Shown: in pieces, positions 1-15,793 of the stretch
How positions within the stretch are numbered: the stretch's first letter is position 1
Layout of the letters: each line of letters opens with the position of its first letter
Source of the DNA: a bacterium
GTDB lineage: Bacteria > Desulfobacterota > Binatia > HRBIN30 > CADEER01
Length of the DNA: 64,000 bases
Direction of reading: 5' to 3'
NCBI GenBank assembly: GCA_019637795.1
Contig: JAHBUY010000002.1
Span: forward strand, 496,001 to 560,000
Program-made: the position numbers and the translations under genes
Notes under the pieces: model-generated
Seen by the model: only the letters and a program-made list of their open reading frames with translations
Told to the model about the DNA's origin: nothing
Databases searched by the model: none

Positions 1-261
1 GGCACGGCGATGAACGGCGGCCCTCCGCCGCTCGCCTTCGGCGCCTCGCCGCGCGCCTCGCTGGCGCTGGTGCAGGCGGCGCGCGCCCTCGCCTACGTGC
101 GCGGCCAGGACTACGCCAGCGCGGCGATGGTGCAGGCACTGTTCGGCGATGCGGTCCGCCATCGCGTCGGACTCACCTACGAAGCCGAGGCCGAGCAGGT
201 GACCCCCGACGCCGTGCTGCAGCGCGTCCTCGCCACGACGCCGATTCCACCCCGCACCTGA
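1..261 (+). CDS. MoxR-family AAA ATPase, C-terminal fragment
   Basis: Only the last 86 codons lie in the window; the reading frame is open from base 1 and ends with TGA at 259-261. The sequence matches the C-terminal lid domain of MoxR ATPases: the short segment GASPRASLAL followed by ARALAYVRGQDYA is the usual lid signature. The Walker motifs would be upstream of the window. MoxR proteins are chaperone-like AAA+ ATPases that usually precede DUF58 and VWA (Bat) genes, which is the order seen here. The gene is separated from the DUF58 gene by 363 bases and a strong terminator, so it may form its own transcript. Confidence 0.85.
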   Translation, partial: GTAMNGGPPPLAFGASPRASLALVQAARALAYVRGQDYASAAMVQALFGDAVRHRVGLTYEAEAEQVTPDAVLQRVLATTPIPPRT

Positions 262-385: not shown

Positions 386-426
386 GGCGCCCCGGCCCCC
401 TCCCGGCCGGGGCGCCTTTTTTCTTT
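386..426 (+). terminator. Rho-independent terminator after the MoxR gene
   Basis: A perfect 12-bp stem (GGCGCCCCGGCC at 386-397 paired with 405-416) with a 7-base loop is followed directly by a T-rich run at 417-426. This is a textbook intrinsic terminator on the plus strand. It lies 125 bases after the MoxR stop and 199 bases before the DUF58 start, so the downstream Bat genes should need their own promoter, unless the hairpin acts as an attenuator. Confidence 0.9.
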
Positions 427-451
427 TCGCGCTTCGGCGGCGCGGCGTGCT

Positions 452-469
452 GGCGATGTCTTCATCGCC
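452..469. promoter_or_regulatory. perfect 7-4-7 dyad, possible enhancer site
   Basis: GGCGATG (452-458), a 4-base spacer, then CATCGCC (463-469) form a perfect inverted repeat. It is centred about 147 bases upstream of the -12 element of the putative sigma-54 promoter at 594-609. That distance is typical for binding sites of NtrC-type activators with a Fis-like HTH. The role is inferred from position and symmetry only; no second copy was found upstream of the kinase gene. Confidence 0.35.
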
Positions 470-593
470 GAGGAGCGCGGGGCCGGATCCGTGGACGGTT
501 CAGGTTCCTTTCGCGCCATCCGGCCGGCTGCTTTGAGCCACCGCGTTTTCGATGGGCGCGCGTATCGCCGCACCGCCGGGTCCGTTCCGCACC

Positions 594-609
594 TGGCACA
601 ACCGTTGCC
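594..609 (+). promoter_or_regulatory. sigma-54 (-24/-12) promoter-like sequence
   Basis: TGGCAC (594-599), five bases, then TTGC (605-608) match the sigma-54 consensus with GG and GC exactly 10 bases apart. The site is immediately upstream of the DUF58-Bat genes, and a sigma-54 activator is encoded at the end of the same cluster (8867-10276). Against it: the predicted transcription start (about 620) would leave only about 5 bases before the ATG at 625 and would exclude the GGAG at 612-615 from the mRNA. Confidence 0.45.
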
Positions 610-624
610 TTGGAGCATCGCGAC

Positions 625-1515
625 ATGAATGCGCCGGCTCCCCATCCCGTATCGCTGCTCCGCAAGCTCGAGTGGCGGGTCCGCCACACCGCGGACTCGC
701 TGCTCGGCGGCGAGTATCGCTCCGCCTTTCGCGGCCGCGGCCGCGAGTTCGACCAGGTCGTCCAGTACGAGTGGGGCGACGACGTCCGCGACATCGACTG
801 GAACGTCACGGCGCGGCGCGGCGAGCCCTACCGCAAGAAGTACGTCGAGGAACGCGAGCTCACCCTCGTCCTGCTGTTCGACGACAGCCCGTCGTTGCAG
901 TTCGGCTCCGGCGCGCGCAGCAAGCGGACCGCGGTGCTCGAGCTCGCCGGACTGCTGGCGCTGCTCTCGGCCGGCAACCGCGACCGCGCCGGCTTCTGGC
1001 ACGCCACGCCGGAGACCCATCTGGTGCGCGAGCCGGTGCGCGGCCGCACCGCGATCATCGAGACCGCGGCGCGCCTGTTCGCGCAGCCGATCCCGGACCT
1101 CGACCGCGGCGGCGAGGTGGCGATCGACTGGCAGCGCTTCTTCCTCGCCTTCCCGCGCCACAGCGTGGTGCTGTGGCTCGGCGACTTCGCGCCCCGCCCC
1201 ATGCCGCCCGCCTGGTCGGCGCTGCGCCGCCGCTACCAGATGGTCGGCGTGCGGGTCGAGGACGCCTGGGAGCGGGTGCTACCGGCGCGCGGCCGCATGA
1301 CCGCCGTCGACCCGGTGAGCGGCGCGCTGGTGCCGTTCGATCCCAGCTCGCGCGCCAGCCGCGCCCGCCACGCGATGTGGGTGCGGGCCCGCGACGCCTA
1401 CTTCAAGCAGCTCTTCCCGTCGCCGCTCGATTGCCTGACCGTCAGCACCGATGACGACCTGCTCGGCGCCCTGGTTCGATTCTTCCGCGCCCGCATGCAG
1501 GGGGTGAAGGGATGA
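625..1515 (+). CDS. DUF58 domain-containing protein
   Basis: 296 residues. The DUF58 core DDVRDIDWN-TARRGEPYRKKYVEE runs at about residues 52-77, and FDDSPS (85-90) is a MIDAS-like DxSxS motif, as in VWA-type folds. DUF58 proteins accompany MoxR and Bat/VWA proteins and probably present or receive client proteins at the membrane; the exact job is unknown. No signal peptide or membrane segment is evident, so it is likely cytoplasmic or peripheral. The ATG at 625 was chosen because GGAG lies 9 bases upstream; a TTG at 610 is an alternative. The stop overlaps the BatA start as ATGA, which indicates translational coupling. Confidence 0.85.
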   Translation: MNAPAPHPVSLLRKLEWRVRHTADSLLGGEYRSAFRGRGREFDQVVQYEWGDDVRDIDWNVTARRGEPYRKKYVEERELTLVLLFDDSPSLQFGSGARSKRTAVLELAGLLALLSAGNRDRAGFWHATPETHLVREPVRGRTAIIETAARLFAQPIPDLDRGGEVAIDWQRFFLAFPRHSVVLWLGDFAPRPMPPAWSALRRRYQMVGVRVEDAWERVLPARGRMTAVDPVSGALVPFDPSSRASRARHAMWVRARDAYFKQLFPSPLDCLTVSTDDDLLGALVRFFRARMQGVKG

Positions 1516-2555
1516 CGCCGGGTTGGACGCTCGCCACGCCCGCCTGGCTGCTGCTGCTCGCCGCGCTGCCGCTCATCGCCTGGCTGCGCGCCCGCCGCGG
1601 CCGGCCGGTGCTGGTGGTGCCATTCGTCAGTCAGTGGACCGGCCACGATCTCGTCACCCGGTCGCGCCTGCCGCAGGCACTGGTGCTCGCCGGCCTGGCG
1701 TTGATCGCCGTCGCCCTGGCGCGGCCGCAGCACGTCGACGAGCAGCGGCAGGTGACGCAGGACGGCTACGACATCGTCCTCGCCATCGATCTCTCCGGCA
1801 GCATGCTGGCCGAGGACTACGCGCGCGACGACGGAACGCGCATCAACCGCCTGCAGGCGATCAAGCCGATCATCGACGCCTTCATCCAGCGCCGCCCGAG
1901 CGACCGCATCGGCATCGTCCCCTTCGCCGGCCGCGCCTACACACTGGCGCCGCTCACCGCCGACCACGACTGGCTGCACCAGCAGGTGCGGCGGCTGAAG
2001 GTCGGCCTGATCGAGGACGGCACCGCGATCGGCGACGCGCTGTCGCTCGCCGTCGCCCGCCTCGGCCAGCCGGCCCGCGAGACGGACGGCAAGCGGCTCG
2101 GCGGCTTCGTCATCCTGCTCACCGACGGCGCCAACAATGCCGGCGCGGTGGCGCCGCTCGAAGCCGCGGCGCTCGCCAAGGCGAAGGGCATCCCGGTGTA
2201 CACGATCGGCGCCGGCACCGACGGCGTCGTGCCGATGCCGGTCTTCGATCCGAGCGGCCGCAAGCTCGGCTATCGCGACGCGGTCTCCGACCTCGACGAG
2301 GCGACGATGCGCGCCATCGCCGACGCCACCGGCGGCGGCTATTTCCGCGCCACCGACTCCGACACCGTCGAGGCGGCCTTCGCCGCGATCGATCGCGAAC
2401 GCAAGATCACCTTCGACGCCAGCGCGGCGCGGCGCGCCGAGGAATTCTACGCCTGGGCGGCGTGGCCGGGCATGGCCCTGATCGCCGCCGGCTATCTGCT
2501 GGCGCTGGTTCCGACCTCCCTCGGTCGCGGCAGCCGCCGCGAGGTGCCCGCATGA
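1512..2555 (+). CDS. batA: BatA-like VWA domain membrane protein
   Basis: 347 residues. Two membrane segments near the N-terminus (about 10-26 and 54-71) are followed by a von Willebrand A domain with an intact MIDAS DLSGS (93-97), and a third membrane segment closes the protein (about 317-335). This is the BatA/BatB architecture: membrane-anchored VWA proteins with the A domain exposed on the periplasmic side. The family is linked to stress or oxygen tolerance in Bacteroides and Leptospira, though biochemical function is not settled. Start and stop overlap the neighbours by four bases each (ATGA), so it is part of a tightly coupled operon. Confidence 0.88.
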   Translation: MTPGWTLATPAWLLLLAALPLIAWLRARRGRPVLVVPFVSQWTGHDLVTRSRLPQALVLAGLALIAVALARPQHVDEQRQVTQDGYDIVLAIDLSGSMLAEDYARDDGTRINRLQAIKPIIDAFIQRRPSDRIGIVPFAGRAYTLAPLTADHDWLHQQVRRLKVGLIEDGTAIGDALSLAVARLGQPARETDGKRLGGFVILLTDGANNAGAVAPLEAAALAKAKGIPVYTIGAGTDGVVPMPVFDPSGRKLGYRDAVSDLDEATMRAIADATGGGYFRATDSDTVEAAFAAIDRERKITFDASAARRAEEFYAWAAWPGMALIAAGYLLALVPTSLGRGSRREVPA

Positions 2556-4639
2556 CCTGGCAGCATCCCCTCGTCCTCGTGCTCGTCCCGCTGGCGCTGG
2601 CCGGCGCCTGGTGGCTGTTCCGCGCTCGCCAGGCGGCGACCGACGAGCGGCTGCCGAACGTCGCCCGCCGCTGGGCCGACCGCCTCGGCCTGCACGCCGC
2701 GGCGCCGCTGATGTCGCGCCGCGGCCGCGGCGCCGCCCTGGCGCTGGCGCTGCTGCTCACCCTGGCGGCGCTGGCGCGGCCGCAGTGGGGCGAGATCCCC
2801 GAACAGACGGTGTCGCGCTCCCGCGAGGTGATGATCGCCCTCGACCTGTCGCAGAGCATGATGGCGGACGACGTCTCGCCGACCCGGCTGGCGCGCGCCA
2901 AGCTGCTCGTCGACGCGCTGCTCGACGCGCTGCACGGCGAGCGCGTCGGCCTCATCGTCTTCGCCGGCACCGCCTTCGTGCAGAGCCCGCTCAGCGCCGA
3001 CTACGAGGTGCTGCGCGAATTCCTCGCCGCCCTCGACACCTCCTACCTGCCGCAGGGCGGCACCGAGTACGGCGCCATGCTGCGCGCCGCCAGCGAGGCC
3101 TTCGGCGCCCAGGGCGACGGCGACCGCTACCTGGTCGTGCTGAGCGACGGCGAGGCGCAGGACACCGACTGGCAGCAGCTCGTGCCGACGCTGCGCCAGC
3201 GCGGCATCCGGGTCATCGGTCTGGGCGTCGGCACGCCGCAGGGCGCTCTGGTTCCCGCCGCCGATGGCGGGATCCTCGAGGACGAGTCCGGCAAGGCCGT
3301 GCTGTCGAAGCTCGAGCCGGCGACCCTGCAGGCGCTCGCCGAGCAGACCGGCGGCACCTATCGCGACGCCGCGACCTGGGTCGACATCGCCGATCTGGTC
3401 AGCGGCACCGTCGCCACGGGCCGCGCCGGCACCTACGTCGAAGAGCGGCGCGTCCGCCTCGAGGACCGCTTCCAGTGGTTCCTCGCCCCGGCGCTGCTGC
3501 TGTTCCTGCTCTCGTACTGGCTCGAATTCCCCCTCGCGCCACTCGCCCGCGCGCTCTCCACGCGCGGCCGCCGGCCGCTCCGGGTCCCCGCCCCGGCGAT
3601 CGCGGCGGCGTTGATCGGGCTGGCCGCCTGGCCTCCTCCTCGCCAGGCGCTGGCGGTGGCGGCGGACACTCCTCCTCCCCAGTCCGCCGCCACCATCTCC
3701 CCGCCCGCGGATCTGGCGGCGACCATCGCCGAGCTGAGCGCCAGGCCGACGCTCGACGCCGCCGACTATGCGCGCCTCGCCACCGACACCATCGGCTTCG
3801 CCGCGCAGCCCGCGGCGCCGCGCGGCGCGCCGCGCGACGGCATCATCGACGACGCGCTCGCGGCGGTCGATCGCGGCGCGCAGCGCGACGCCCACGCCGC
3901 TGATTGGCCGGCGCTCCGGCAACAGCTCGAGGCGCTGCGCCAGCCACCCCAGCCACCGCCGAACCCGCCGCAGGAGCAGCAGGGCCAGCAACAGGAGAAT
4001 CAGCAGAACCAGGAGCCGCAGCAGGGCCAGCAGCAGGAGAGTCAGCAGAACCAGAAGCCGCAGCAGGGCCAGAGCGACCAGCCGCAGCAGAACCAGCAGA
4101 GCGCCGGCGGCGCGGAGGCGGACCGGCAGCAGAATCAGTCGGGCGGTGGATCGTCAGCGCCGGACCAGCAGCAGGCGCGGGACGAGCAGCGCTCGCCCGC
4201 CGACCACGGGGACTCGTCACAGGCCAACGATGGCAAAGCCCAGGACCGCCGTGAGGGCGAAGCGGGCGCGGAGTCCGGTGGAGAAGATCAGCAGGCGCAG
4301 TCGCCGCGCCAGGATCGGAAGACCGGCGAGGTGCAGCGGCAGCAGGACGCCAAGCCGGTGGACAGCGCCGGGCTGGGCGACGACGAGACGCCGCCGCAGC
4401 CCGAGTCGGCGCCGCGGCAAGAGGCCGGCGTCCAGGAGCAGGCGGCGCCGCCGGGCACGCGCCTGATCGGCGGCGGCCAGGTGGTCGCCAACGCGCCGCA
4501 GAGCGACGACCCGGCGACCGCCGATGCGCTCGCCCGCATGGAACAGGTGAAGGACGGCGACGCCCCGGCGGTGCTGTTCGACCGCATGAACCGCGCCGAG
4601 GGCCAACCGAAAGCGAAGAACAACGGGAAGAACTGGTGA
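2552..4639 (+). CDS. batB: BatB-like VWA protein with BatC-like glutamine-rich tail
   Basis: 695 residues, about twice the usual BatB. Residues 1-330 look like BatB: two N-terminal membrane segments, a VWA domain with MIDAS DLSQS (98-102), and a membrane segment at about 306-327. A further hydrophobic stretch at about 349-363 leads into a long Pro/Gln-rich acidic region (roughly 465-670) that contains 14-codon repeats. In other genomes BatC, a small TPR protein with a low-complexity tail, is a separate gene in this place, so a BatB-BatC fusion is the likely explanation; TPR motifs in the tail are not obvious by eye. The ATG at 2552 overlaps the BatA stop. Confidence 0.82.
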   Translation: MTWQHPLVLVLVPLALAGAWWLFRARQAATDERLPNVARRWADRLGLHAAAPLMSRRGRGAALALALLLTLAALARPQWGEIPEQTVSRSREVMIALDLSQSMMADDVSPTRLARAKLLVDALLDALHGERVGLIVFAGTAFVQSPLSADYEVLREFLAALDTSYLPQGGTEYGAMLRAASEAFGAQGDGDRYLVVLSDGEAQDTDWQQLVPTLRQRGIRVIGLGVGTPQGALVPAADGGILEDESGKAVLSKLEPATLQALAEQTGGTYRDAATWVDIADLVSGTVATGRAGTYVEERRVRLEDRFQWFLAPALLLFLLSYWLEFPLAPLARALSTRGRRPLRVPAPAIAAALIGLAAWPPPRQALAVAADTPPPQSAATISPPADLAATIAELSARPTLDAADYARLATDTIGFAAQPAAPRGAPRDGIIDDALAAVDRGAQRDAHAADWPALRQQLEALRQPPQPPPNPPQEQQGQQQENQQNQEPQQGQQQESQQNQKPQQGQSDQPQQNQQSAGGAEADRQQNQSGGGSSAPDQQQARDEQRSPADHGDSSQANDGKAQDRREGEAGAESGGEDQQAQSPRQDRKTGEVQRQQDAKPVDSAGLGDDETPPQPESAPRQEAGVQEQAAPPGTRLIGGGQVVANAPQSDDPATADALARMEQVKDGDAPAVLFDRMNRAEGQPKAKNNGKNW
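3977..4102 (+). repeat. 42-base in-frame tandem repeat (Gln-rich)
   Basis: Two near-identical 42-base units (3977-4018, 4019-4060) and a diverged third (4061-4102) encode Q-Q-G-Q-Q-Q-E-x-Q-Q-N-Q-x-P. Differences between units 1 and 2 include both silent and replacement changes. The period is a multiple of three, so gain or loss of units would keep the BatB frame open. It encodes a hydrophilic, probably disordered linker. Confidence 0.85.
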
Positions 4640-7203
4640 TGAATCGCCCCCGCTCGATCACGACCGAGGCCCCGGAGGCCGCCGCTGGCGCGGCGCCGGG
4701 CAGACACCCCGCATGGCGAGCCGGCCGCGCGGCCCTGATGGCCGCGCTGCTCGTCGGCCTGGCGACGCCCGCCTTCGCCGCGCGGGTCCATTGGCTCGAA
4801 CCCGACGCGATCGGCGCCGGGCAGACGGCGTCGCTCGACCTGGTGTTCGAGGACACCGCGCCGGCGGGACCGATCGCGCTGCCACACGTCGACGGCCTGC
4901 GCGTCGTCGGCGCGCCGGCCCAGGCGAGCGACATCTCGATCGTCAACGGCCACCGCTCGGCGAGCCTGACGCTGAGCTATCCGGTGCGCGCCGAGCGCAC
5001 CGGGACGCTGCACGTCCCCGCCTTCGACGTCGAGACCAGCGACGGCACGCAGCGCGTCGCGGCGCTCGACCTCGAGGTCGGCCGCGCCATGGTGCGCGAC
5101 CGCAGCGGCGCCGCGCGCGCGCTCGAGGACGCCGTGCAGGCGCGCCTGACGCCGTCGACGCTGACGCCCTACGCCGGCGAGGTCGTCGACCTCGACCTGC
5201 GCATCACCCTCGACGGCAACCACAGCGGCCAGGTGGTCGGCGCGCCGACCTGGGACGCCGGCGGCCTGGCGGTCGAGCCGTGGAGCGACGGACACGCGGT
5301 GCGCACCAGCGGCGGCAACGCCGTGCGCTTCCACACCCGCGCGGTGGCGCCGCAGGCCGGGCGGCTCGAGGTCGCGCCCGCCGAGCAGGAGGTCCAGTTG
5401 GAGACCGGGCGGGGGCGCAACCCGCTCGCCGACTTCGATCCGTTCGGCGCCATGCAGCGCATGGGCGGCAGCCGGCTCTTCGACTCGTTCTTCGGCGCCC
5501 CGCAGATGACCGCGGTGACGGCGCGCAGCAACGGCGTCCAGCTCGACGTGCGTCCGCTGCCGCAGCCGGCTCCCGCCGGCTTCAGCGGCGCGGTCGGCGA
5601 TTTCACCCTCGAATCGACGCTCACCCCCGACCATCCGAAAACCGGCGAGCCGGTGACCTGGACGCTGACGCTGTCGGGGACCGGCAACTGGCCCAATGGC
5701 GTCGCCCTGCCGGCGCGCGCCGTGCCGGCCGACCTGCGCACGCTGCAGCCGAAGCAGCGCAGCTCGTTCGGCGACCACGGCCGCTTCAGCGGCGAGGTCT
5801 CCGAGGACCTGGTGATCGTCCCCAATCAGCCCGGACCCCTGGCGCTCGCGCCGGTGCGCTTCGTCTACTTCAATCCGACCAGCGGCCGGTACGAAACCGC
5901 CGAGGCGACCCCACCGACCCTCGAGGTCACGGGCGCGCCGCTGCCAGCCGCCAGCGCGCCCGCCCCGGCGCCGGCCGCCGTCGCGGCGCCGAGCAGCGAG
6001 CCGGCGCCCCTGGCGGCGCCGGCGCTCGGGTCGCCGCTCGACGGCCGGGCGCCGACGCTCGCGCCCCTGCCATGGACGACGCTGCGCTGGTGGCTGATCG
6101 CGCCGTTCGCGCTCGCCTTCGGCCTGCGCCTGGCGCGCCGCGCCTGGCGGGTCTGGCACGACCATCCGCGCCGCCGGGCGCGGCGCACCGCGCGACGGAT
6201 GCAGGTCGCGATCCGTGCCGCCCGCGACGCGGCCAGCGTCGAGGCGCGGCTGGCGGCGCTGCTCGATTGGCAGCGCGCGGCGGCGCGGCTGCTCGACATC
6301 GATCTCGCCGCGCCCACCGCCGAGCAGGTGCGCGGCATCGGCGATGCGCGCTGGGCGGAGGTCTGGGCGGCCAGCGAGCGCGCCCTCTATGCGCGCGGCC
6401 ATGGCCTGCCCGAGCAGTGGTATGCCGCGGCGCTGGCGCTGTGCGCGCCACCGCGCGGCGGGCGCGCGGCGCGGCGCGGGCGGCGCAGCCGTCCGCTCGT
6501 GGCGACCGCGGCGACGGCGTCGCTGCTGCTGCTGGCGCTGGCCATGCCGAGTTGGGGCGACGAGCGGGAGGCGCTGCGGACGCAGGTCGAAGCGGCCCCC
6601 CTCGACTGGATCGCGCGCTACAACCTCGGCCTGGCCGAAGCGCAGGCGGGCGACAGCGGCCGCGCCCTCGGCGAGACCGCCGCGGCGCTGGCGCTGGCGC
6701 CGCGACAGGCGGTGGTTCGCGCCAACGCGCGCGCCCTCGCGGCATCGGTGCCCGGCGCCGAGGCGACCCTGGCGCCGCTGCTCGACCACCGCCTCGCAGC
6801 GCTCGCCTCGCCGGCGCACTGGCAGTTGACGCTGCTCGCCGGCGCGGTCCTGGCGGCGGCGGGCATCGCCGTCGGTCGCCGGCGCCCGAGCTCGCTGCTG
6901 CTCGCCGCCGGCGCCCTGGCGATGGCGGTGGCCGGCGTCGCGCTGCGCGCCCAGGGCGCCTTCGCCGATCCGCGCGCCGCGCTGGTGGCCCGCGCCGCCG
7001 CGCTCCACCCCCTGCCCACCGAGGCCGCGCCCGCCGCCGACGCGCCGGCGCTGGCGCCGGGGAGCCTCGTCATCGCCGGCGGCGACTTCCTCGGCTGGCG
7101 GCAGGTGCGGCGCGCCGACGGCGCGACCGGCTGGGTGCGCGGCAGCGATCTCGTGCCGCTGTACGCACCGCCGGCGCGGCCACGCGGCGAGACGGCCGCA
7201 TGA
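4639..7203 (+). CDS. batD: BatD-like protein fused to BatE-like TPR/SH3 region
   Basis: 854 residues. A signal-like segment (about 30-47) precedes a long extracytoplasmic BatD region. A membrane segment lies at about 476-498, a second at about 618-640, then a short TPR-like stretch (about 650-720), two more hydrophobic segments (727-770) and a C-terminal SH3-like segment containing GATGWVRGSDLVPLY. The second half resembles BatE (TPR plus SH3), so this looks like a BatD-BatE fusion. The ATG at 4639 overlaps the BatB stop by one base (TGATG); a GTG one codon earlier is possible. As the last Bat gene it precedes a two-component system on the same strand. Confidence 0.8.
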   Translation: MNRPRSITTEAPEAAAGAAPGRHPAWRAGRAALMAALLVGLATPAFAARVHWLEPDAIGAGQTASLDLVFEDTAPAGPIALPHVDGLRVVGAPAQASDISIVNGHRSASLTLSYPVRAERTGTLHVPAFDVETSDGTQRVAALDLEVGRAMVRDRSGAARALEDAVQARLTPSTLTPYAGEVVDLDLRITLDGNHSGQVVGAPTWDAGGLAVEPWSDGHAVRTSGGNAVRFHTRAVAPQAGRLEVAPAEQEVQLETGRGRNPLADFDPFGAMQRMGGSRLFDSFFGAPQMTAVTARSNGVQLDVRPLPQPAPAGFSGAVGDFTLESTLTPDHPKTGEPVTWTLTLSGTGNWPNGVALPARAVPADLRTLQPKQRSSFGDHGRFSGEVSEDLVIVPNQPGPLALAPVRFVYFNPTSGRYETAEATPPTLEVTGAPLPAASAPAPAPAAVAAPSSEPAPLAAPALGSPLDGRAPTLAPLPWTTLRWWLIAPFALAFGLRLARRAWRVWHDHPRRRARRTARRMQVAIRAARDAASVEARLAALLDWQRAAARLLDIDLAAPTAEQVRGIGDARWAEVWAASERALYARGHGLPEQWYAAALALCAPPRGGRAARRGRRSRPLVATAATASLLLLALAMPSWGDEREALRTQVEAAPLDWIARYNLGLAEAQAGDSGRALGETAAALALAPRQAVVRANARALAASVPGAEATLAPLLDHRLAALASPAHWQLTLLAGAVLAAAGIAVGRRRPSSLLLAAGALAMAVAGVALRAQGAFADPRAALVARAAALHPLPTEAAPAADAPALAPGSLVIAGGDFLGWRQVRRADGATGWVRGSDLVPLYAPPARPRGETAA

Positions 7204-7386: not shown

Positions 7387-8811
7387 GTGCCGGCCCAACC
7401 GTCCATCTTCCGCCGCGTTCGACTGGCGACCTTCGCGTTCCTCGCGCTGCTGACGATCGGCCTGGTCGTCTCGGCGGCGTTGACCGTGCGCGAGCAGCGG
7501 CTGCTGCGCAATGCCGCGGCCGAGATCGAGCGCCTGCACGAGTTCCAGCGCGTGCACGTCGTCGTCTCGCAGCAGTTGACGCGGCTCGGCGTCGATCCGG
7601 CGCCCGATCCCGAGACGCGCCAGGACACCGAGCAGAAGATCAACCTGCTGATCGGCCTCACCGTCTCGGCGAAGACGATCGAGAAGCTCGCCGCCGTTCG
7701 GGTGCGACTCGAGCTCATCGACACCGGCGGCGCCAGCCACTTCGCCGAGGGCACGGCGCTGCTGGCCGAAGCCGAGAGCGCGGAGCAGGAACATCAGGCG
7801 ACGGTGCTGGCCAGGCTGCAGCGCGAGAACATCGCCCAGCAGCAGCTCGAGCTGGCGGCGCCGATCGCGGTGCTGGCGGTCGGCGTGCTGCTGCTGCCGC
7901 TCGCCCGGCGGCGCATCATCAAGCCGCTCGACGCCTTCGCGGAGCGGCTGTCGCGGCTGGCCGACGGCGACTTCGGCCCGGCGCCGCTGCACGGCGTCGA
8001 TCCCTTCCTGCTGCCACTGCACACCCAGCTCAACGCCGTCGCGGCGCGCCTGCAGGAGCTCGAGGCCGCGCACCAGGCGCGCGCCGCGTCGCTGGAGGAA
8101 GCCGTCGGGGTCGCCGTCCGCCGCCTGCTCGAACAGCAGCGCGAGCTGGCGCGCGCCGAACGGCTGGCGGCGACCGGCGAGCTGGCGGCGTCGGTGGCGC
8201 ACGAGCTGCGCAATCCGCTGGCGGGGATCCAGATGACCCTCGCCAACCTGCGGGCCGAGATCGACGACCGCGAGGTCGGCGAGCGTGTGGAGCTGGTGCT
8301 GAGCGAGGTCGACCGGCTCACCCGACTGCTCAATTCGCTGCTCGACTCGGCGCGCCATCAGCCCGAGCCGCTGCGCGAGGTGCGACTGGCGACGCTGGTG
8401 GAGGAGCTGCTGACGCTCACCCGTCACCAACTGCCGGCGGGCGTGCGCATCGACATCCAGGTCGATCCGCAGCTCACCTGTCGCGCGCCCCAGGATCGCC
8501 TGCGCCAGGCGCTGCTGAATCTCGTGCTCAACGCCGGCGCCGCCCTCGGCGAGCGCGGCGGCGTGATCACCATCGCCGCCCGCGGCGACGGCGATCGGGT
8601 CCGCCTGACGGTCAGCGACGACGGACCCGGTTTTCCGGCCGAGGTGCTGCAGAACGGCATTCGCCCCTTCTTCAGCACCCGCGAGCAGGGCACGGGCCTG
8701 GGGCTGTCGCTGGTCCGCCGCTTCGCGCGCGAGATGGGCGGCGAGCTGGCGCTCGCCAATCGCGCCCCGCACGGCGCCGAAGTGACGCTGACGCTCCCGC
8801 TGCGCGACTAG
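7387..8811 (+). CDS. sensor histidine kinase (HAMP-HisKA-HATPase)
   Basis: 474 residues from the GTG at 7387. A membrane segment (about 9-32), an extracytoplasmic loop, a second membrane segment near 155-175 and a HAMP-like stretch ending in RLADGDFG lead to the phosphoacceptor His272 in VAHELRNPL. The ATPase domain has an N box (NLVLNAG), G1 DDGPGFP, F box PFFSTREQ and G2 GTGLGLSL. It should autophosphorylate and pass phosphate to the regulator encoded 55 bases downstream. The form HELRNPLAG is typical of NtrB/AtoS-like kinases that pair with sigma-54 activators. A GTG at 7279 would add 36 residues without similarity to a membrane anchor, so the later start is preferred with moderate confidence. 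Confidence 0.9.
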   Translation: MPAQPSIFRRVRLATFAFLALLTIGLVVSAALTVREQRLLRNAAAEIERLHEFQRVHVVVSQQLTRLGVDPAPDPETRQDTEQKINLLIGLTVSAKTIEKLAAVRVRLELIDTGGASHFAEGTALLAEAESAEQEHQATVLARLQRENIAQQQLELAAPIAVLAVGVLLLPLARRRIIKPLDAFAERLSRLADGDFGPAPLHGVDPFLLPLHTQLNAVAARLQELEAAHQARAASLEEAVGVAVRRLLEQQRELARAERLAATGELAASVAHELRNPLAGIQMTLANLRAEIDDREVGERVELVLSEVDRLTRLLNSLLDSARHQPEPLREVRLATLVEELLTLTRHQLPAGVRIDIQVDPQLTCRAPQDRLRQALLNLVLNAGAALGERGGVITIAARGDGDRVRLTVSDDGPGFPAEVLQNGIRPFFSTREQGTGLGLSLVRRFAREMGGELALANRAPHGAEVTLTLPLRD

Positions 8812-8866: not shown

Positions 8867-10276
<1,410 letters not shown>

Positions 10277-12936: not shown

Positions 12937-13036
12937 TGCTCCTCCTTGGTTTTCATTATCGCGAAAGCCCCGCAATTCAAGAGCCCGGCGTTTCCTTTGG
13001 CCGATCCCGCGCGTGCGCTATACGCCGCGGACGGAG

Positions 13037-15793
13037 ATGCGTGACAGCGCGGATATCGTCGTCCGGTACCCTCGCACGGCCATCGTCATCGGCCTGCTGG
13101 CGACCCTGCTGTTCGGCATCGCGGCGCGGCACGTGCGCATCGAGGCGTCGATGGGCAGCATCCTGCGCGCCGACGATCCCGGCGTGCGGTATTACGACGA
13201 TGTCCGCACCGCGTTCGGCAGCGACGACATCGCCGTCGTCGGGGTGCGGGCGGATGAGATCTTCGCGCCCGGGACGCTGACCAAGATCGCCCGCGTCACC
13301 GACCAGCTCGCCGCGCTGCCGGGCGTCGAGCGGGTGCTCAGCCTGACCAATACCGTCGATCCGGCAGCCGACGTCTTCAATCCGCCGCCGCTGCTGCCGT
13401 CGATCCCACCGCGTCCCGAGGACATCGCGGCGCTGCGGGCCAAGCTCGCGGCGACGCCCTTGTACGCGCAGAATCTCGTCGCGCCGGACGGGCACGGGGC
13501 GGCGATCAATGTCGTCCTGCGGCCGATGACCGATGCCGAGTACGCCGACCTGCGGCTCGACGAGCGCATCGCCGATATTCTCGCCGCCGCGCAGGGACCG
13601 GAGCAGTTCTTCTACACCGGGGTGTCGCGGATCACGCGCAGCGCCGTCACCCTGATCCGCCGCGACTTCGCGCGCTTCACGCCGATCGCGGTCGCCTGCG
13701 TCGTCGCCGTGCTCTGGTTCGCCTTCCGCCGCTTCCGCGCCGTCGTCCTGCCATTGGTGACGGTCACGCTGGCGGTGGTGTGGACGGTCGGCGTGATGGC
13801 GCTGGTCGGCATCCCCGTCAGCCTCGGCACGTTCATGCTGCCGCCGCTGCTCCTCGTGGTGGGCAGCGCGCAGGCGATGCACGTCATCTCGGCCTACTAC
13901 GAGCAGGTGCGGCGCGGGAACCGCGAGGGCGCGGTCGGCGAGGCGGTGCACGCGGTGTGGGCGCCGCTGCTGATCTCCAGCGTCACCCTCGCCGTCGGCT
14001 TCGGCGCCCTGACGGTGAGCGACATCGTGGCGGTGCGCGATCTCGGCCTGATGGCGGTGGTCGGCGTGCTGCTGTCGACGATCAGCTCGCTCGGCTTCCT
14101 CCCGGCGGCCCTGGCGGTGTGGGCCCAGGTGGCGAGCAGCAAGGAGACCGCGCCGTCGCCGCGGGTCGAGAGCCTGATGGTGAAGATAGGCGGCCAGGCC
14201 TACGCGGCTCGCGGCACCGTGCTCGGCGTGGCGGCGCTGATCGCCGCCGTCGCCGCGATCGGTACGGCCCGCATCGTCGTCGAATCCGACTTCCTCGCCT
14301 ACTTCGATCCCAGCTCGCCGGTGCGCCACGACCACGAGCTGATCAACCACACGATCGTCGGCAGCAATCCATTCTACCTGATCATCGAGGGGGGCGCCCC
14401 GGGCACATTGCGGCAGTGGGAGGTGCTGAAGAGGATCAAGGATCTGCAGACCTTCATCGGCACCCTCGACGGGGTGAGCGGTTCGATCTCGCTGGTCGAC
14501 TACCTCGAGCTGCTGGAGAAGGGACTGAACAAAGCCGGCGAAGGCGATGTGTTGATCGACGAGCACGGCAACATCATCGAGGGCACCGGCGGGGCGCCGC
14601 AGTCGTTCTGGGAGAACTCCGCCAACCTGCCGCCGGTTCTCAACCTGATGGCCGGGAGCCCCAGCACCTTCCGCGCCGTGGTCAGCGGCGACTTCTCGCG
14701 CGCCAGCATCGTCGTGCGCTCGAAGGTGTCGGGGTCGCGCGAGATCGAGGCGATGCTCGGCAAGATCCGCCACTACGTCGGCGAGCACTTCCCGGCCGGG
14801 CTGCGCGTGGTGCCGACCGGCAGTCTGGTGCTGATCACCGGCACCAGCTCGCGCATGGTCCTCGACCAGATCGCGAGCGTGTCGCTGGCGCTGCTCGGCA
14901 TCTTCGCGGTGATGGCGCTCATGTTGTTGTCGGCACGCATCGGGCTGCTGGCCATCCTGCCCAACGTGCTGGCGGTCGACGTCTTCTTCGGCATCCTCGG
15001 CTGGGGACGGTTGCCGCTGAATCTCGGCACCAGCCTGATCGCCACCATGGCGCTCGGCCTGGCGGTCGACTCGAGCGTCCACTACATGTGGCGCCTCAGC
15101 CGCGAGCTGCGCGGCGAGGCGGACCAGGCGGCCGCCATCCAGCGCACCCTGCGCGCCGTCGGCGCGCCGATGCTGTACACCACGCTCGCCCTGGCCACCG
15201 GCTTCCTCGCCTTCGCCGGCTCCAGCTTCCCCCCGATCCGCAACTTCGGCGTTCTGACCGCGATCACCCTCGCCACGGCCTTCGCCGCCAACCTGGTGGT
15301 GCTGCCGGCGCTGCTCGCGACCACCAAGATCATCACCCTGTGGGATCTGCTGCGGGTCAGGTTGGGGCCCGACTTCACCCGCGCCATCCCCTTGCTCGCC
15401 GGCCTCCGACCGGCCCAGGCGCGCATCGTGGTGCTGATGGGCGAGCTGCGCCAGTTCCCCCCCGGGGCACCCATCGTCCGCGCCGGCGAGGAGGGCAGCG
15501 AGATGTTCGTCATCCTGTCCGGCGCCACGGACGTCTACGTCCGGCACAACGGCGACCGCCGCCAGGTGGCGGAATTCCGCCGCGGCGACGTCTTCGGCGA
15601 GATGGCGCTGGTGCGCAACGAAGAGCGCAGCGCCGACGTCGAGGCCCGCGACGCGGTCGAGCTGCTCGCCGTCGACCAGCGCTTCCTGCAACGCATCCAG
15701 CGCCGCTACCCTCGCATCGCGGCCCGCGTCTTCCTCAATCTGACCCGCATCCTCAGCGACCGCCTGCAGCGCATGAACGAACGGATGGCGTAA
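13037..15793 (+). CDS. MMPL/RND-superfamily exporter with C-terminal cyclic-nucleotide-binding domain
   Basis: 918 residues. The first part has the two-fold RND/MMPL layout: a membrane segment near the N-terminus, a large extracytoplasmic loop, five or six membrane segments (about 210-370), then the pattern repeated. Residues from about 790 to 900 form a cNMP-binding domain: [21 protein letters not shown], then [10 protein letters not shown] with the Glu of the phosphate-binding cassette, and [15 protein letters not shown] proteins move lipids or hydrophobic compounds using the proton gradient; a cytoplasmic cNMP sensor on the tail is unusual. The ATG at 13037 gives an N-terminus suited to the first membrane helix. 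Confidence 0.85.

Follow-up and report, generated by a model that had tools for sequence, protein, structure and literature searches.

What turns on a Bat operon that ends in genes for its own histidine kinase and NtrC-family response regulator? Bat operons are widespread, and their trigger and role are poorly known. The locus studied here lies at the start of a 64 000 nt stretch of bacterial DNA (the window), and our analysis indicates that its MoxR-Bat operon is probably controlled by sigma-54 together with the operon's own two-component system. If this is true, the signal of the dedicated kinase is the signal of the Bat system, which gives a direct handle on the Bat trigger.

Organization of the operon and its two-component genes

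The genes lie on one strand in the order moxR-[terminator, 363 bp gap]-DUF58-batA-batB-batD-HK-RR. The window opens inside moxR; positions 1-261 (+ strand) hold its 3' end, a MoxR AAA+ ATPase by profile match with the AAA_lid_2 domain encoded by bases 1-258. The full gene occupies C2:495227-496261 of the genome of the window (G000) and starts upstream of the window (open frame C2:495218-496261, conserved start 495227). Profile matches also identify the genes for the DUF58 protein (625-1515, +), a BatA-like VWA protein (1512-2555, +), a BatB-like VWA protein with a long Q-rich C-terminal part (2552-4639, +) and a BatD-like protein (4636-7203, +), whose C-terminal part, judged from G012, is BatE/SH3-like; G012 is the nearest relative carrying the full arrangement (DUF58 67%, HK 51% and RR 73% identical). 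The moxR, DUF58, BatA, BatB and BatD genes are thus contiguous on one strand. Separate TPR genes batC and batE are absent from the operon; BatB and BatD appear to carry the corresponding regions as fusions. The starts of BatA, BatB and BatD overlap the stop codon of the preceding gene, and their translation may rely on coupling, given these overlaps. The initial annotation listed DUF58, BatA, BatB/C and BatD/E, then a histidine kinase and a GAFTGA-containing activator of the NtrC family; genes for DUF58, BatA, BatB, BatD, the kinase and the regulator are indeed present. It also listed these genes without moxR and treated DUF58 as the first gene of the cluster, which is incorrect: moxR lies directly upstream on the same strand and ends at 261. 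Since moxR precedes DUF58 in every relative with a readable region, the locus is a MoxR-Bat operon. A small open frame of 83 codons at 377-628 runs through the terminator and reaches into the DUF58 start codon (ATGA); it is probably due to chance. Further along the window, at 13013-15793, is an RND-type exporter frame whose C-terminal part resembles a cyclic-nucleotide-binding domain.

The membrane histidine kinase (HK; 7387-8811, +) has HisKA and HATPase_c domains, and its GTG start at 7387 was set by comparison with G012. Its sensor is predicted, with modest confidence, to be all-helical; the structure model has a mean pLDDT of 60, too weak for a fold search. The proposed activator, an NtrC-family response regulator (RR; 8867-10276, +), combines a receiver domain (Response_reg, D55), a Sigma54_activat domain (3.6e-59) with GAFTGA and a Fis-type HTH (HTH_8), and both D55 and GAFTGA are kept in the two orthologues (G000 and G012). 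The closest NCBIfam models are AtoS/ZraS for the HK and AtoC for the RR, with the equivalog cut-offs missed in each case (RR 353/714 bits for AtoC and 262/760 for ZraR; HK 173/646 for AtoS). In G012 (L034:1469-5058) the genes for a DUF4215 protein, one uncharacterized protein and NnrU separate kinase from regulator; both genes stayed with the operon despite these three intervening genes.

Two predicted sigma-54 promoters

The gap between moxR and DUF58 contains an intrinsic terminator (386-422, +), in which a stem-loop at 386-416 with a 12 bp G+C stem (-31.3 kcal/mol, z = -3.9) is followed by a T-run. The strong terminator annotated upstream of DUF58 was therefore real, and its presence before DUF58 requires a new transcription start. 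A simple scan of positions 1-700 with the E. coli consensus (genome 70% G+C) found no sigma-70-like promoter. The gap does contain the -24/-12 element that the initial annotation had proposed: TGGCACAACCGTTGC at 594-608 (+) is an exact TGGCAC-AACCG-TTGC with GG at 595-596, GC at 607-608 and N10 between them, and it has 10 of the 10 core letters of the pattern (GG/GC with fixed N10 spacing in TGGCAC...TTGC context). We denote this predicted second operon promoter P2; its predicted +1 is at 620.

A second exact site, TGGCACGTCCATTGC at C2:495181-495195, precedes moxR (predicted promoter P1). It lies outside the window and so was invisible to the initial annotation. The conserved moxR start lies 31 bp downstream of it, and the first in-frame ATG 22 bp downstream; the site scores 10/10 core letters and 11/12 in the extended pattern, and its predicted +1 is at C2:495207. 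Both sites are on the same strand, 1.4 kb apart, and are two of the 14 exact TGGCAC-N5-TTGC sites on both strands of the genome. About 10 such sites are expected from composition for a genome of comparable size, so rarity alone says little. Location says more: 12 of the 14 sites are intergenic and just upstream of a same-strand gene (11 within 100 bp, one at 275 bp), or 10 of 12 when the two of the operon are excluded, with gene calls from a simple codon-score gene finder written for this analysis and trained on this operon. The reversed control pattern is intergenic in one of eight cases, and gene-upstream positions make up 3.9% of the position-strand pairs in the window (binomial 1e-15, Fisher 0.0015). 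An exact site in this genome is thus a good predictor of a promoter, and at the genome's own rate about 4e-4 exact sites would be expected in the moxR-DUF58 gap. The genome has a single copy of rpoN (Sigma54_DBD, E = 3.9e-63). Sigma-54 control of the operon, as predicted, is well supported by its sequence. Elsewhere in the genome, an exact site at L082:1501-1515 precedes the gene for an ANTAR-domain regulator, and sigma-54 dependence has been predicted for this class in other organisms (PMC12316311); further sites precede genes for a patatin-like protein, a histidine kinase, a CrcB-like protein and others.

The two predicted promoters differ in conservation. In G012, too, an exact site precedes moxR (TGGCACGCCGCTTGC, 41 bp from the start of the gene), and the joint expectation for two sites in one operon plus this recurrence is about 1e-7. 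Among the other relatives with a readable moxR upstream region (> 250 bp, n = 33, mostly from other phyla, with the shared ancestry of G000 and G012 as a confounder) matches that retain GG and GC reach at most 9/12. No HK/RR pair follows BatD in the 19 of these 33 whose contig extends at least 2.5 kb past BatD, and a search of 148 genomes from the class and 395 from the phylum gave no further genome with HK/RR besides G012; the arrangement is thus carried by two of the genomes searched. The site at 594 is absent from G012, the one relative found with matching HK/RR, and the conservation that the initial annotation proposed to look for is not seen there: the moxR-DUF58 gap of G012 is only about 60 bp, with neither a terminator nor a -24/-12 site, and in many other relatives as well the two genes are only 40-110 bp apart without such a site. 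We regard P1 as the firm one of the two predicted promoters, and P2 as probable and lineage-specific.

They differ also in their leaders. With a +1 at 620 and the ATG at 625, the predicted DUF58 leader spans 5 nt and leaves out the likely ribosome-binding site, GGAG at 612-615 (+), 9 nt before the ATG. This difficulty, raised in the initial annotation, stands for P2, from which DUF58 is perhaps translated weakly, and is absent at P1, where the predicted leader of about 20 nt contains AGGAGG.

G000 has a second, ordinary Bat locus (L073:8542-15707, C10; DUF58 39% identical) with no sigma-54 site, and the paralogous Bat loci of related genomes (36-38%) show no convincing site (one 10/12 match lies at a start codon in L030). 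DUF58 matches in the four same-family genomes compared are only about 36% identical, and the operon in the window is more like loci of Verrucomicrobia and Myxococcota MAGs than those of same-family genomes. This similarity suggests horizontal acquisition.

Candidate activator sites and the proposed circuit

The initial annotation had offered the perfect 7-4-7 dyad at 452-469 (GGCGATG-TCTT-CATCGCC) as the activator site. The dyad is real as sequence, yet a perfect 7-4-7 dyad is found in 6.4% of 170 bp stretches and a perfect dyad of 7 or more with a gap of 0-12 in 35%; in view of this chance-level frequency and its absence from the moxR promoter, we rejected it as the activator site. A better candidate is GGCTGCTTTGAGCCACCGCG at 526-545 (+), whose counterpart before moxR is GGCTCTGTTGAGCCACCGCG (C2:495092-495113). 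Their common 13-mer core, TTGAGCCACCGCG, lies upstream of both -24/-12 elements, at a distance of 80 bp for the moxR site and 61 bp for the one at 594. It is preceded by GGCT at both promoters, and before moxR sits inside the perfect dyad GTGGCTC-TGTT-GAGCCAC. The 6.16 Mb genome has three exact copies, two of them upstream of the operon's promoters; the third was rejected as a promoter element, being inside a dnaX-like ORF with no dyad and no site. A shared 13-mer alone arises in about 2% of random-piece comparisons, and the case for GGCTGCTTTGAGCCACCGCG as the putative activator site is good but not conclusive. Attempts to extend the motif gave no significant dyad shared by all three promoters (P1, P2 and that of G012): the best, GGTGGC-N8-GCCACC, has four mismatches in all, and shuffled sequences do as well in 7% of cases, random genomic triples in 9%. 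The regulators of G012 and G000 have nearly the same HTH, although the motif extended to G012 is not significant. Nor do P1 and P2 look like a duplication, as plain alignment gives only a 21 bp match and 2.8% of random pieces score as high.

In the mechanism that we propose, a signal at the membrane HK would lead to phosphorylation of the RR. Bound at sites 60-100 bp upstream, the RR would then use its GAFTGA loop to open sigma-54 RNA polymerase at two -24/-12 promoters, the conserved P1 before moxR and P2 before DUF58. P2 would restart transcription past the terminator that follows moxR, and its transcripts, together with any read-through from P1, would raise HK and RR and so provide positive feedback. 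Having two promoters would allow different levels of MoxR and of its VWA partners. The role of the RR as activator is suggested by gene order, co-occurrence and the shared upstream sequence; P2 activity and positive feedback are presumed. What had been annotated as a self-contained sigma-54 stress circuit gains on one side, with the second site before moxR (kept in G012) and the shared 13-mer speaking for sigma-54 and an own activator; its stress role would follow by analogy with other Bat systems. The more elaborate proposal of a self-activating circuit, in which two sigma-54 promoters split by a terminator let an operon-encoded NtrC-type regulator dose MoxR and its VWA partners separately, with a nearly leaderless DUF58 message, is tentative, if quite possible. 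The missing conservation of P2 in G012 and a leader that omits the likely ribosome-binding site count against the mechanism, as does the finding of the arrangement in just two genomes.

The unconserved P2 and its short leader would fit an operon in which only the moxR promoter is active, with RNA polymerase reading through the terminator into the genes from DUF58 to RR, translation using the GGAG at 612-615 and the match at 594 incidental. G012 kept P1 and not the gap, the terminator or the 594 site, and the close spacing of moxR and DUF58 there and in many relatives is in keeping with this. We consider it unlikely, given the low expectation for an exact site in the gap, the near-unique 13-mer that precedes the 594 site by 61 bp and the very stable terminator upstream of it.

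Other NtrC-family activators of the genome could act at the operon's sites, and a first look gave 93 candidate places for NtrC-like proteins. The operon might then be sigma-54 dependent and switched on by one of these, its own HK/RR regulating other targets; the co-occurrence of HK/RR with an exact moxR site in two genomes, and of neither in the 19 long relatives, makes this distinctly improbable. That both sites are chance matches, with housekeeping promoters in use and HK/RR mere neighbours, would agree with the number expected by composition and with G012 and two other genomes, where control matches equal or exceed the real ones. The matches in the window's own genome are overwhelmingly gene-upstream, however, two of them fall in one operon, and an exact site recurs at the same place before moxR in G012 against the joint expectation given above, which makes pure coincidence very hard to credit. 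Control by sigma-54 and the operon's own HK/RR remains our preferred reading.

Comparison with known systems

A search of the literature found no paper linking sigma-54 with a Bat operon. Oxidative-stress roles of Bat are reported in Riemerella, and no phenotype was seen after bat deletion in Leptospira biflexa (PMC3557215); in view of the latter, a 'stress circuit' is not established here. The Riemerella anatipestifer bat operon shares with ours the order moxR, then DUF58, VWA BatA/BatB and BatD, and a two-component regulator at the moxR promoter: PhoP of PhoPR binds there (PMC9603813, PMC11834572), the candidate here being the RR. Riemerella PhoP is a reported regulator of many genes and is not described as bat-encoded, whereas our candidate is of the NtrC family, encoded at the operon end and accompanied by sigma-54 sites. 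The sigma-54 systems ZraPSR and AtoSC provide the nearest models of HK and RR, but with scores far below the equivalog cut-offs, and ZraR reportedly can autoregulate its own operon (PMC12316311); the target operon here is moxR-bat, unlike in ZraPSR/AtoSC. In Vibrio cholerae, RavA-ViaA (MoxR + VWA) is functionally linked to Zra2/Cpx, a Zra-like envelope-stress two-component system (PMC10848872). There the two sit at separate loci, Bat genes are not mentioned, and CpxR is what the Zra-like regulator was compared with; this is not direct sigma-54 control of the MoxR operon. The MoxR-Bat operon is thus already known, also under two-component control; what is new here is the predicted sigma-54 regulatory arrangement.
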